Positions 28,549 to 33,985 of a DNA stretch of 34,122 nucleotides are shown in pieces; the first letter of the stretch is position 1, and every line of letters begins with the position of its first letter. A program made the position numbers and the translations under genes. Source of the DNA: Candidatus Poribacteria bacterium (lineage in GTDB: Bacteria > Poribacteria > WGA-4E > WGA-3G); NCBI GenBank assembly GCA_009839745.1, contig VXPE01000131.1, positions 36,703-70,824 of the forward strand, read 5' to 3'. Under the pieces are notes generated by a model, which was given only the letters and a program-made list of their open reading frames with translations, did not search any database and had not been told where the DNA came from.

Positions 28549-30705
28549 ATGTCGCTGGAAAAGTGGACAACGCTCCAAACTGAACAGATCCAAACCCTTT
28601 CTGAAACTCTTTCAGAAAGGGAACTCTCTGCGGTCAGGCAACTGGAACCGATCGCGGATTTTGAGGAACTCTTCACGTTTGACGAAGCATACCCGACACC
28701 GACCGAATTCACGCCAGAATACCCCGCGTGGCGATTGGAATCTGTCGCCGCACGGGTCATAGAGGCAGTCGCGATTGCAGCCCATGAACCGCTTACGGCG
28801 TTGGGATACCGCGAACTCGCCCGTATCCTGTCAGCACACGCTGAATATCTCTACACCTATTCAGACGGTGAACCGCGTCCGAGACTCGAAGCGGGCAGTG
28901 CACTGGCATTGGCAGGCAGCGTCTGTGCGTCACTTCCGCAATCGGCACTCTGGCGACTTGCCGGATTTGGAAGGATGTCGGGAGTGTTGACGGAGGTCGC
29001 GCCTACACCGACGGATTCGCATCTCATCCGACCGATTGATGTTGCCTTCTCGCTTGCGAACGAGCGGAACCTTCCGATCTTGGCAGCCGCGGTGAACGCC
29101 TATAATACCGTCCTTAAACGCAACTTCACGCCGCAGCGTCAATACAACTTGCCTCTCAGCGATAGCGATTTTTTTGAGGCTCTGAATTTGGATTTTTGCG
29201 AGTCAAAACTTGCTGTTAAAAATGCGGACGATGTAGCCGTAGCCAAAGCCGCATACACCGTCTTTCGGAGAGAATTTTTAGATTCACAGGTCGAACAAAA
29301 ATCAATCCCACTCACAGACAGATCCGATACCTATACGACTGCGAAAACCTACCTCGAATGTCTGCTCCGGTTGTCCATCCATCCGACACCCGCTATCACT
29401 GCGACGACAGAGATCGGTATTGCGGCACACCTCTTTCCTGAATTCCGTGGGAGTGAACAACTGCGTCTCCTCGCGCTGCGTCGCTATAAATGGATAATGG
29501 AGGCGTTTTTTCATTCAGATGGCTTTCACAAGGATCGGACACTCCGGTCCCACGTTGAGGCAATTGCGGATTCTGTCAGATTCCTATCTGTTTACGGAGA
29601 CGCCAGGGAGAGTGCCGGCTCCTTGGCAGAGATACAGACATCGCTGGAAAGACAGGTCGAAGCGTGTATCCGTCTGCGTCAACCCGATAACGCGTTTCCA
29701 CCGTTCGGCCCGCTCCCCGCGCCGAACTTCGATGCCGCTGAACTCTGCACGATTGTCGATAAAGACTTCCGACTTGAGGATTTTCCATCCACTGATACCA
29801 CCTCACACGCGCTTCCTGAGACGGGTTGCTATGTCATGCGAGACAGTTGGGAACCCGAGGCACAATACCTGTTTTTCGATACGCATCCATCTGAAAAACC
29901 GAGCCACACGGACACATCAATTTTCGTGTTACACGCTCACGGACGACATCTAACAACGGGTTCCGTTGGTGTGCTTGAGACCACCCGCTCGGAGCCTGAT
30001 GCACTTAACACACGATGGATAACGACACCCGCATTCGATTTCGTTGAAAAGTGGGACGTTTTGACCGCAGCTCTCGGCAACGCGCAAGCCGTGCCAAAAA
30101 CGACTGAGGCGCAGCACAAACGCGCTATTTTCTATCTTAAAGGTGAATACTTCGTCCTACACGATCTCGTTCTCGGTGCGGGTGCGTACACATTGGAACA
30201 GGTATTTCGTTTCGATCGAAAGGTCGCCCCTTATATCATTTCCGAAGCAGGGAACATACGGACGCAGGAACCACAGCGTAGCAATCTGTTCATCGGTGCG
30301 GTGCAGACACCCGATCTCTCGGTAACATCGGGCGGGAACAGTATTACATATCGGAAACATCGGGAATCGCCAATGGCAGTGAACACAGTGCTGTTGCCGA
30401 TGAAGCCTGAAGTGGAAGTGCGTCCGACGCTTTCTGCTATTGAGGTGTTTACCGATCCTGATGTTTTAGGGACAGGTTTCACCCTCCGGTTACCCAACGC
30501 GACGGATACGTTCCTCATCTCTGATGATGGCTTGGCGGAGATGTCTACCGCAGATATTCGGTGTGTCGGTGAATTTCTCTTCTTACGGCGCGACACCTCC
30601 GGTGCAGCCGTTCAATTCGTGATGCTGAACGCCCGGTTCCTGCAGGTGGATGGGAGTGTCCTTGCCGATTTGGACGAAACCTGTGAGAGCTATGTTCGGA
30701 TGTAA
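28549..30705 (+). CDS. Heparinase II/III-like polysaccharide lyase family protein
   Basis: The 718-residue protein has a helical N-terminal half resembling the alpha/alpha toroid of alginate lyase and heparinase families (YKWIMEAFFHSDGFHKDRTLRSHVEAIADSVRFLSVYG). A beta-sandwich half begins at LPETGCYVMRDSWEPEAQYLFFDTHPSEKPSHTDTSIFVLHAHGRHLTTGSVG, the heparinase II/III signature region. The His of SHTDTS and the downstream tyrosines are candidate catalytic residues. No signal peptide is seen (MSLEKWTTLQTEQIQ), unusual for a lyase acting on external polysaccharide; it may work in the cytoplasm or on imported oligosaccharides. AAGG lies about 8 nt before the ATG. It follows a terminator, so it probably has its own promoter, which I cannot identify. 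The substrate is unknown. Confidence 0.8.
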   Translation: MSLEKWTTLQTEQIQTLSETLSERELSAVRQLEPIADFEELFTFDEAYPTPTEFTPEYPAWRLESVAARVIEAVAIAAHEPLTALGYRELARILSAHAEYLYTYSDGEPRPRLEAGSALALAGSVCASLPQSALWRLAGFGRMSGVLTEVAPTPTDSHLIRPIDVAFSLANERNLPILAAAVNAYNTVLKRNFTPQRQYNLPLSDSDFFEALNLDFCESKLAVKNADDVAVAKAAYTVFRREFLDSQVEQKSIPLTDRSDTYTTAKTYLECLLRLSIHPTPAITATTEIGIAAHLFPEFRGSEQLRLLALRRYKWIMEAFFHSDGFHKDRTLRSHVEAIADSVRFLSVYGDARESAGSLAEIQTSLERQVEACIRLRQPDNAFPPFGPLPAPNFDAAELCTIVDKDFRLEDFPSTDTTSHALPETGCYVMRDSWEPEAQYLFFDTHPSEKPSHTDTSIFVLHAHGRHLTTGSVGVLETTRSEPDALNTRWITTPAFDFVEKWDVLTAALGNAQAVPKTTEAQHKRAIFYLKGEYFVLHDLVLGAGAYTLEQVFRFDRKVAPYIISEAGNIRTQEPQRSNLFIGAVQTPDLSVTSGGNSITYRKHRESPMAVNTVLLPMKPEVEVRPTLSAIEVFTDPDVLGTGFTLRLPNATDTFLISDDGLAEMSTADIRCVGEFLFLRRDTSGAAVQFVMLNARFLQVDGSVLADLDETCESYVRM

Positions 30706-30857: not shown

Positions 30858-31619
30858 CTAATCCTCAATGACCTCTAACCCTTGCATTCGCTCAAGGGCG
30901 AAGACGCGGGTATCCTGGCGCAATTCGCAAAATCCTTCTACACACAACGTCTCACCGGATGCCCGGCTGTTCGGAATATTCAGGAACCGCTCCGGTGTAA
31001 CGACACGCGTCCTCCACCTTTTGGCGCGCGGCTTTTTATACTCAAACCGAATCCGCTGCTCGTTGTCAATCGCGGATTGGATTTCTGTGAATTGTTCCGC
31101 AAATTCTGACTGCGATGCCTTTAGCGTAAAAGTGCCAAAAATGTTGCCTTCATGGTATGTCCCCCTGTAACATTCGGCACAGACGAGTCTGAGCGTATCT
31201 AACTTGTTCGTGCCTCCTTCAAATACGGGAATATCGTGCAGGAGATAGACATCCTGCTCTTTACCACACTTTGAACAGCGCGAACCCTTTTCTCGGATAA
31301 CTTGTCGTTTCCGTTCATCCCAATCGGGTGGCCAACACGGCAGATAGTCATAGATTTCGGTTAAAACGGATTTTACCTTCGCGAGTTTGGCACGTAAATC
31401 TTCACTATCAGCCTCCGGCAACGCATGCTGTTCTTGCGTTTCGTTTGGCACAAAGAGCGACAAGATGAGTTGCGATTTCTGTTGCTGCAGTGCCGTTTCA
31501 ATCTCATGTTCTCGCATCTGCAACAGGAGGATACATGAATAATGAACGAAGTCTCCGTTGGAGAGTGCTATATCGTATTCCCAATCTGTCTCTATCTTGC
31601 ATACGGTACAATAAGGCAT
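30858..31619 (-). CDS. Zinc-finger + HNH nuclease + WYL-domain fusion
   Basis: The 253-residue protein appears to have three parts. The N-terminus has a small zinc-finger-like module (C4, C7, H26, C29). The middle is an HNH-type nuclease module: DERKRQVIREKGSRCSKCGKEQDVYLLHDIPVFEGGTNKLDTLRLVCAECYR, with C115/C118, His 128 and C147/C150. The C-terminus (about 180-250) reads as a WYL domain: SAIDNEQRIRFEYKK, then RVVTPERFLNIPNS...CVEGFCELRQDTRVFALERMQGLEV. WYL domains sense nucleic acids or nucleotides in defence regulators, so this could be a ligand-gated nuclease (inference). AGGAG lies 6-8 nt before the ATG. It starts 17 nt after the AAA-PDDEXK gene, so both are in one operon. Confidence 0.72.
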   Translation of the reverse strand: MPYCTVCKIETDWEYDIALSNGDFVHYSCILLLQMREHEIETALQQQKSQLILSLFVPNETQEQHALPEADSEDLRAKLAKVKSVLTEIYDYLPCWPPDWDERKRQVIREKGSRCSKCGKEQDVYLLHDIPVFEGGTNKLDTLRLVCAECYRGTYHEGNIFGTFTLKASQSEFAEQFTEIQSAIDNEQRIRFEYKKPRAKRWRTRVVTPERFLNIPNSRASGETLCVEGFCELRQDTRVFALERMQGLEVIED

Positions 31620-31636
31620 TTCATGCTCCTGGAATC

Positions 31637-33247
31637 TTAAGCATCAGGGAGATGTGTCTCTGAAGGACGTTCCTGAACGACAGGAATCACATAACTCCGA
31701 ATTGTTACATCGTCGATTGTCTGGGTTTCCACACGCGGCTCAGGATCCTGGCGATGGTCAAAAACTATATAGTAACCTTCCGTTGTTCCTTCCAATTTGA
31801 GGTATGCCGCTAATTGCTGTTTGCCTGCTTCATAGCGACTCCTACCTCTCCAAATCTTTGTCTCAACAATGTATTTTTGCTGATTGTGCGTAATAAGGAT
31901 GTCCATCCTACCTCGCCCGGTTGGTACTTCTATGTGCATGACGCCACCAATACGCCCAACAAACTCGTCGAGGTAAGCAAGCAAGAGGTGGCGGCCTACC
32001 GATTCTTGCGGCGTATCTGGGACTTGCAAAATCCTAAACCCCGCACGTGCTATGAAATCTTGGAAGTTATCAAGTAACGCCTTCATTTCAATTTGATCGG
32101 TAGATGTGAGATACTCACGGAGCGCGTCGCTGGTATCTGTCGGGAAGTATTCCCGCTCTAACCCGTTTACGAGTGGCTTGAATGCTCTCATAATACGATA
32201 GAGGTAAATTGGATTGAGAATCTCACAGTCTCCGTCATTACCTCTTGCAATGACCCCATAAGTGGCGAGTTCACTGATAATGTCATTATCGGGATTGAAG
32301 TCCACGCCTTCATCACGTTCCATGATGTGCATCAGCATACTTTCAAAACGCGGATTTTTGCGGATGTTGGTTATCAAGTGTGTGATGTTGACATTGTTCT
32401 CCTCAAGGAGTTGTGCATGTGCCTTTGTAAAATGTGGCATCGTAATCGGTTCTGTTTTGGGAATATCCAACGCCTCTGTGAGAATCTGCGCGAATCGGTT
32501 GACGAGAACAGGTTGTCCAGCTGTCTGCTTATGAATGGATTCAATCACCTCGGGTGCAAATGGCTGTCCGACTTCTTCCGTATATTGCCCAAGGAGTTCC
32601 TGCACCTGTTCACGCGTGAAGTTCGGCAGGTTGAACTCATCTTGGATATTGAACGGGGAGATGGATCGGTCGTAGTTCAGCTGCGTAATACTCTTGACTC
32701 CGACAATACCGACACTATGTGGACATCGAGAAATAGGGTTTGAAACATAGATACGGCGAAGTGAATGCAGAAAACCTCTCACCGCTTCCTTCGGGATGCC
32801 GTCAAACTCGTCTATGATGAGGATAAGGCGTTGGTCACCCAGGAAACGGGAAAAGCGTCTAAAGAATCTTCCCATTGAGAGATGATCGGTGATCTCTGTG
32901 TTCTCCAAGAATTCCGCCAACGCTTCAGAAAAGACTTCTCCGCGTTGCGCAAAAATATTTTCTATCTCCTCGCGAATATCTTCGTGAAGATTGCTATAAA
33001 AAACCGACGGTGTGCAACCTTCGTATTCCTCAAAATTCAAGGCGATAGGGAAGTAGGCAGATGCTTCGTCTCTGAACACATCTAAGGCACGTTGAAAGAA
33101 GGTCGTTTTGCCGGTCTGACGGGGCGCGAAAATAACGATGTAACGCCCTTCTTCGACACGCTTGATGAAATCTGTGAGTTCAACAGCGCGGCTGACGACA
33201 TAGTTTCTCTCGGGATGAACGGGACCCTGCGTCCCAAAGCGTCTCAT
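31637..33247 (-). CDS. AAA ATPase fused to a PD-(D/E)XK nuclease domain
   Basis: From ATG 33247 (GAGG 6 nt upstream; a GTG at 33259 is less likely) the product has 536 residues. The N-terminal ATPase shows Walker A APRQTGKTT and Walker B LILIIDEFD, followed by a sensor-like SVGIVGVKSI and a winged-helix-like region (MLMHIMERDEG...ELATYGVIARGNDGDCEILNPIYLYRIM). The C-terminus is a PD-(D/E)XK nuclease: GRMDILI (Asp), then KYIVETKIW (ExK) and the GKQQLAAYL helix. This layout is common among AAA-like ATPases of unclear function in environmental bacteria. With the HNH-WYL gene downstream it forms a two-nuclease operon, possibly a defence or repair unit. Cytoplasmic. Confidence 0.82.
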   Translation of the reverse strand: MRRFGTQGPVHPERNYVVSRAVELTDFIKRVEEGRYIVIFAPRQTGKTTFFQRALDVFRDEASAYFPIALNFEEYEGCTPSVFYSNLHEDIREEIENIFAQRGEVFSEALAEFLENTEITDHLSMGRFFRRFSRFLGDQRLILIIDEFDGIPKEAVRGFLHSLRRIYVSNPISRCPHSVGIVGVKSITQLNYDRSISPFNIQDEFNLPNFTREQVQELLGQYTEEVGQPFAPEVIESIHKQTAGQPVLVNRFAQILTEALDIPKTEPITMPHFTKAHAQLLEENNVNITHLITNIRKNPRFESMLMHIMERDEGVDFNPDNDIISELATYGVIARGNDGDCEILNPIYLYRIMRAFKPLVNGLEREYFPTDTSDALREYLTSTDQIEMKALLDNFQDFIARAGFRILQVPDTPQESVGRHLLLAYLDEFVGRIGGVMHIEVPTGRGRMDILITHNQQKYIVETKIWRGRSRYEAGKQQLAAYLKLEGTTEGYYIVFDHRQDPEPRVETQTIDDVTIRSYVIPVVQERPSETHLPDA

Positions 33248-33397: not shown

Positions 33398-33985
33398 TTA
33401 GTCGGTTGTTGGCTTTTGTGCCTTTTTCAATGCTTTTTTCACGTCTTGGGGCGTAACATCGATGGTTTCTTGTCCCGTGTTGAGGGCATTGTATGCGATA
33501 ATGGTTTTGAGGATTTGATGTGCCAAGGTCACATGCTGCATAACGTCTTTTGAATTGCTATGTTGAAAGATGTGTTGTTTCCCATATCCGTAAAGGGTTT
33601 CTAATTCTCGAACGACGTTTTCCGGCACGTTGAGGTCGGGGATACGATAATTATTGCAGAACTCATCTCGGGTGTCCTTAAAGAGTGCCTTGTATTTATC
33701 GGGGAACTGTCCGTGGTCGATATCAAGACGGCGAAAGCGATTGAACAGGTTTTCTCGGATCTGTTCTTTGTGCGTTGCGAGTCCTTGGTTCCGGAGCTTG
33801 TCGCGAGCATTCGTGTAGTACTGTGTATACTCAAGATCATAGTCCTCAAGTGCTTTTTCATTGAGCAGTTCATCGGCTTTATCCTCGTACATTTCTTCAA
33901 AAATTTCCCTATTTTCTTCGATGAAATCGTTGATAAACTCAAGTTTTATCGCGGGTTCTTCTTCGCCATGGTCATCCTTTATCAT
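33398..33985 (-). CDS. Highly charged helical protein, unknown function
   Basis: The 195-residue ORF is rich in Glu, Asp, Lys and Asn and predicted helical throughout (EFINDFIEENREIFEEMYEDKADELLNEKALEDYDLEYTQYYTNARDKLRNQG). The C-terminal part (HVTLAHQILKTIIAYNALNTGQETIDVTPQDVKKALKKAQ) resembles a helical bundle. I do not recognise a family. The ATG at 33985 is the only plausible start, since an in-frame stop lies 24 nt upstream, but it has no Shine-Dalgarno. It lies 150 nt upstream of the AAA-PDDEXK gene on the same strand and may belong to that operon. Its GC content is visibly lower than that of the core genes. Confidence 0.55.
   Translation of the reverse strand: MIKDDHGEEEPAIKLEFINDFIEENREIFEEMYEDKADELLNEKALEDYDLEYTQYYTNARDKLRNQGLATHKEQIRENLFNRFRRLDIDHGQFPDKYKALFKDTRDEFCNNYRIPDLNVPENVVRELETLYGYGKQHIFQHSNSKDVMQHVTLAHQILKTIIAYNALNTGQETIDVTPQDVKKALKKAQKPTTD

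Follow-up and report, generated by a model that had tools for sequence, protein, structure and literature searches.

WYL domains are carried by several transcription factors, including BrxR, CapW, PafBC, and DriD, of which several bind single-stranded DNA (ssDNA) and some regulate defense loci. In PafB, ssDNA binding depends on its arginines together with the tyrosine of the WYL motif (PMC11804915). A short WYL domain without a WCX domain is also found at the C terminus of bacterial Pif1 helicases (DdPif1, SsPif1, and TePif1; PDB 8bnv and 8bns), and five arginines of DdPif1, namely R464, R491, R495, R498, and R501, have been modeled on ssDNA (PMC9964779). The sections of the survey by Makarova et al. 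(2014; PMC4012209) drawn on here describe a WYL ligand groove lined by four basic residues and a cysteine, and include WYL-HNH fusions among the domain combinations listed.

In this study, we analyzed a window of 34,122 nucleotides, the whole stretch of DNA considered here, from Candidatus Poribacteria; the named relatives of its genome are metagenome-assembled genomes likewise labeled 'Candidatus Poribacteria'. Poribacteria are sponge symbionts. Two neighboring genes of the window encode an AAA_35 ATPase with a PD-(D/E)XK nuclease-like C terminus (AAA-PDDEXK) and a protein composed of a zinc finger, an HNH-like module, and a WYL domain (HNH-WYL). In general terms, HNH-WYL has the domain combination of the WYL-HNH fusions of Makarova et al. 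(2014), whereas its N-terminal zinc finger and eroded HNH module are not described in the sections of that paper drawn on here, so that the likeness is one of domain combination. An earlier note on this DNA had called a direct HNH-WYL fusion with a zinc finger unusual. That claim is weakened, as HNH-WYL fusions have been known since 2014; we found no description of the erosion of the HNH module, the Pif1-type WYL domain, or the history of the locus.

Results

Open reading frames and Pfam profiles confirmed the basic arrangement proposed in the earlier note, an ATPase-nuclease gene separated by 17 nt from a downstream HNH/WYL gene with a zinc finger (Table 1). Both are real genes under selection, as indicated by dN/dS values of 0.16 and 0.11. 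Translation of AAA-PDDEXK could begin at the ATG listed in Table 1 or possibly at a GTG 12 nt earlier (33259), and the ATG is preferred because most relatives begin at the equivalent MRRFGTQG.

Table 1. Positions in the window of the two genes, their domains, and flanking genes
Feature	Position	Strand	Remarks
AAA_35 ATPase - PD-(D/E)XK nuclease-like protein	31637..33247	-	536 aa from ATG at 33247; Walker A/B, D453/E466/K468; fold closest to 2QEN
Zinc finger - degenerate HNH - WYL protein	30858..31619	-	253 aa; follows the AAA gene after 17 nt
N-terminal CCHC zinc-finger-like segment of HNH-WYL	31533..31610	-	C4, C7, H26, and C29 invariant in 27/27 orthologs
HNH-like zinc module, residues ~100-158	31146..31322	-	C115, C118, C147, C150, and H128 invariant; 127 L/V/I, N142 to T in the window protein, 151 Y
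WYL (Sm-like) domain, residues ~168-251	30867..31118	-	R205, R234, R238, and R244 invariant
Heparinase II/III-like gene	28549..30705	+	Conserved gene that anchors one side of the variable, defense-rich locus
Small protein with DUF2280-like relatives	33398..33985	-	Family recurs at the same locus in other species

The AAA_35 domain (PF14516) was detected with an E-value of 6.9e-15 (55.1 bits against a cut-off of 27), and the Walker A residue K51 and the Walker B residues D150 and E151 are invariant (AAA-PDDEXK residues are numbered from the GTG). Pfam profiles of PD-(D/E)XK nucleases remained below threshold (PDDEXK_9, 0.0076; NERD, 0.0055). The predicted model contains an alpha-beta core, with beta strands at residues 440-469 and a helix at 473-490, in which the D...(E)xK motif is present; among 36 relatives, D453 and K468 are invariant and E466 is kept in at least 90%. 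The AAA fold is closest to that of the Pyrococcus abyssi ATPase 2QEN. In its AAA_35 domain, ATPase_2-like fold, and C-terminal PD-(D/E)XK residues, the protein resembles the multi-copy AAA_35/ATPase_2-PD-(D/E)XK ATPases, from which it differs in representing a lineage expanded in Poribacteria; a literature search on AAA-nuclease families of Poribacteria and on PF14516 found nothing relevant.

The window genome contains 17 matches to this gene, about 12 of them full-length and the rest truncated or broken by stops, and every other genome of the family contains 3-18. The other copies in the window genome are mostly solitary among housekeeping genes, and the AAA_35-PD-(D/E)XK family behaves like a duplicating repeat family. 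Two distant copies (L100 and L101, on contigs C42 and C72 of genome G000) have 222 bp of upstream DNA in common at 98%, ending near the gene, a sign of recent gene duplication, as if the gene had been copied together with its promoter. A transposon with fixed ends was considered and rejected, since the flanks of the paralogs hold no common sequence outside this pair and no ends could be defined. Dispersed copies, some with stops or truncations, were located on G000 contigs C42, C72, C75, C80, C62, C61, C23, C54, C33, C115, and C25 (loci L100-L110). Another AAA-PDDEXK copy has a second type ISP/IIG methyltransferase paralog of the same genome (L107:6659-9811) at a distance of ~1.4 kb.

In the genus of the window, queE, a STAS gene, and the heparinase-like gene mark one side of the locus as anchors, with MlrC and HD genes on the far side; in the second genus carrying HNH-WYL, the gene and its AAA neighbor adjoin the same MlrC and HD genes. 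In sister species, the interval between these anchors holds a DarT-DarG gene fusion (PADLOC: DarG, 2e-44; DarT, 9e-41), a restriction-methyltransferase of type IIG/ISP, and a PD-DExK gene listed by PADLOC as CRISPR-associated. These genes support the view of the locus as a defense-rich hotspot, and a defense-island location, which the earlier note had named as a check, is supported by the DarTG fusion and the type IIG/ISP restriction genes of sister species at the same site. The DarT toxin and DarG-type macrodomain antitoxin form a single 389-aa open reading frame (L098:10021-11190) that many sister genomes share at this site, where pieces of it are present as well. In PADLOC and NCBIfam, HNH-WYL matched at most a generic WYL domain or, weakly, HNH, and we know of no defense phenotype of this protein. 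An origin of HNH-WYL from phages or plasmids was also considered and set aside: viral contigs, phages, and plasmids yielded only lone HNH or WYL matches at <50% coverage and no full-length homolog.

The earlier note had suggested that the two genes form a defense or repair unit, and a two-gene defense unit, in which ligand sensing by the WYL domain gates DNA cutting by HNH, by AAA-PDDEXK, or by both, would suit a locus that gathers defense genes and an AAA protein with conserved catalytic residues. Two genera contain HNH-WYL, in 27 species that make up about half of their total. An intact AAA gene adjoins it in 15 genomes across both genera; AAA lies upstream in 14 of these pairs, separated by -4 to 17 nt, and G047 has the opposite order. 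This short, conserved gap argues for a function shared to some degree. A quick tree split the paired AAA clades of the two genera; a tree constrained to one clade was better by 29.6 lnL (AU p 0.817), so that separate recruitment of AAA by each genus is not supported. The paired AAAs may thus represent one ancestral lineage, and the family may have inherited the pair itself from its ancestor. The two genes have long been adjacent, and where the pair is intact it is probably a co-transcribed operon.

The two genes are nevertheless separable. Next to an intact HNH-WYL, 11 genomes have a decayed or broken AAA gene or none at all (one of the 27 HNH-WYL loci, cut by a contig end, stands outside the tally of 15 and 11). 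AAA occurs without HNH-WYL at the same locus in 8 genomes, and both genes are absent at 11 resolvable loci; in G076, AAA lies beside an HNH-WYL remnant, and in G031 and G037, the same ABC-transporter and MlrC genes flank AAA without HNH-WYL. The resulting table (15/11/8/11 for both, HNH-WYL only, AAA only, and neither) showed no association of presence, with a Fisher p of 0.37, a value that serves only as a guide for counts that share ancestry. In G041 and G038 (L086 and L088), HNH-WYL is a solitary insertion in the nuo (complex I) operon, beside nuoE. Among ten genomes, HNH-WYL distances followed those of the neighboring heparinase gene (Mantel 0.88, p 0.0005), whereas AAA did not clearly co-vary with the heparinase gene (0.28, p 0.07) or with HNH-WYL (0.29, p 0.10). 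The dN of HNH-WYL relative to the heparinase gene was 0.71 with AAA and 0.65 without it, and HNH-WYL is equally constrained in both situations. Conservation of the pair, which the earlier note had named as a check, holds as adjacency in 15 genomes across both genera, with one gene order shared by 14, but the genes are not retained or lost together. A member of a repeat family that decays or goes missing beside HNH-WYL and stands alone elsewhere, next to a gene that follows the heparinase tree, does not fit a single unit, and with the metal site of the HNH module lost as well (see below), we consider the gated two-gene unit unlikely. Copies of a Uma2-like gene were also noticed near the nuo-inserted HNH-WYL of G038.

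HNH modules typically contain two CxxC knuckles, and the residue preceding their catalytic histidine is normally aspartate or histidine. In an alignment of 27 HNH-WYL orthologs (58-83% identity to the window protein), the zinc-finger residues are unchanged throughout, and the two structural zinc knuckles of the HNH module, C115/C118 and C147/C150, are present in every ortholog. HNH profiles of Pfam remained below their curated cut-offs (PF01844, 13.5 bits against 21.4; HNH_5, 16.4 bits against 27.5, E 0.0085), and a profile search of the PDB matched HNH nucleases, including a group II intron maturase and an IscB construct. Aligned with phage, archaeal, and corynebacterial HNHs, the segment is ungapped across the motif. 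The catalytic H128 is kept in 27/27, in each case with an acidic residue (D/E129) after it, and N138 is invariant. Position 127, just before the catalytic histidine, is L, V, or I in all orthologs; position 142, the middle asparagine of the motif, is N in 22 and T or E in five; and position 151, the final H/N, is H in seven and Y in 20. Of the positions of the (D/H)-H...N...(H/N) pattern, only H128 is universal.

By sequence, the module retains its structural zinc site, but its metal-binding catalytic site is eroded, so that loss of the cutting site and, with it, of catalysis is probable. The label "HNH nuclease" used in the earlier note is accordingly corrected to an HNH-like zinc domain whose catalytic site is eroded, the only correction to the arrangement described there. 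Ligand-gated DNA cutting, also proposed there, is unlikely for this module because its metal-ligand positions are lost. Altered or residual metal catalysis is conceivable because an acid follows H128, seven orthologs keep H151, and 22 keep N142. A still active nicking enzyme, gated by ssDNA and relying on H128 and D/E129 in a metal site that has changed, would account for the constancy of these two residues, N138, and the four cysteines; we regard it as doubtful, with the ligand position before the catalytic histidine hydrophobic in every ortholog and the substitutions at 142 and 151 placed by the ungapped alignment exactly on the motif.

The C-terminal WYL domain (PF13280) was detected with an E-value of 7.6e-12 (45.5 bits against a cut-off of 21.8). 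Residues 168-251 are predicted to form an Sm/SH3-like beta-barrel, with pLDDT mostly 75-85 and dips to 42, and the top Foldseek matches of this model were BrxR, PafBC, CapW, and DriD (probability up to 1.00), at modest E-values (best 1.4e-3) and modest whole-model TM-scores. The WYL fold, on which the earlier note had made its proposal depend, thus stands. The model of the whole protein was weak (mean pLDDT 55.6), and a whole-protein fold was dropped because the pLDDT was too low to position the HNH module. HNH-WYL has the WYL fold of these transcription factors; unlike them, it yielded no HTH or WCX domain in our analysis, which argues against a regulator of their kind.

The closest PDB sequence match of HNH-WYL was the C-terminal WYL domain of bacterial Pif1 helicases (8bns, 3.2e-7). 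Both are short WYL domains without WCX, and both have a GFCxxRxDxRVF core and lack the WYL-motif tyrosine, which is a cysteine in HNH-WYL. Given the role of this tyrosine in PafB, its absence speaks against ssDNA binding, although Pif1 lacks it as well. Residues R464, R491, R495, R498, and R501 of DdPif1 align with R205, R234, R238, A241, and R244, so that four of the five arginines modeled on ssDNA in Pif1 are present and invariant in 27/27 orthologs; together with C231, likewise invariant, they match the four basic residues and cysteine of the WYL ligand groove as given in the sections of Makarova et al. (2014) drawn on here. The differences lie in the alanine at the R498 position and in the partners of the domain, a zinc finger and an HNH-like module instead of a helicase. 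Because of the Pif1-type match and the four unvarying arginines, we strongly infer that HNH-WYL binds ssDNA.

A repair or replication accessory that binds ssDNA through a Pif1-like WYL domain, unrelated to phages and placed in the hotspot incidentally, would be in keeping with the vertical inheritance and purifying selection of HNH-WYL, mostly at one ancestral site, and with the lone HNH or WYL matches in viral, phage, and plasmid collections, but presence in about half of the species of only two genera is too patchy for core repair and the neighbors at the hotspot are defense genes, which makes this account improbable.

Discussion

The interpretation that we favor, with moderate confidence in it as a whole, is that HNH-WYL is an accessory ssDNA-binding protein restricted to Poribacteria, likely non-catalytic, located in a defense-rich hotspot, and independent of AAA-PDDEXK. 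It would be a vertically inherited and often lost protein of these sponge symbionts, whose Pif1-type WYL domain most likely binds ssDNA or another nucleic acid, while the zinc finger and the catalytically eroded HNH module would hold duplex or structured DNA. A defense or repair role is probable, and HNH-WYL would then probably serve DNA-damage or phage-defense responses without catalysis of its own, as a sensor, adaptor, or protector. AAA-PDDEXK, a member of a dispersed multi-copy family with intact ATPase and nuclease residues, would often be co-transcribed with HNH-WYL without being required, at a hotspot that also takes up DarTG and type IIG/ISP restriction genes. A bolder version, which we consider rather unlikely, would make the zinc finger, pseudo-HNH, and WYL domain an ssDNA sensor that licenses AAA-PD-(D/E)XK, DarTG, or restriction genes only upon phage- or damage-derived ssDNA, with the dead nuclease serving as a recognition module.

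With the motif eroded and the residues of the ssDNA groove invariant, the HNH-WYL fusion should not be called a gated nuclease. The AAA gene illustrates that an apparent operon partner can come from a large ATPase-nuclease repeat family with a mobile look. If the reading of HNH-WYL as an ssDNA sensor is true, it would represent a non-helicase, non-HTH use of a Pif1-type WYL domain. The conserved chromosomal hotspot in uncultured sponge symbionts offers a place to mine for defense genes.

The small protein with DUF2280-like relatives is helical-looking and gave a weak match to a Cas12a REC1 profile (E 0.0043), probably by chance; the window stops at the contig end, past this gene.
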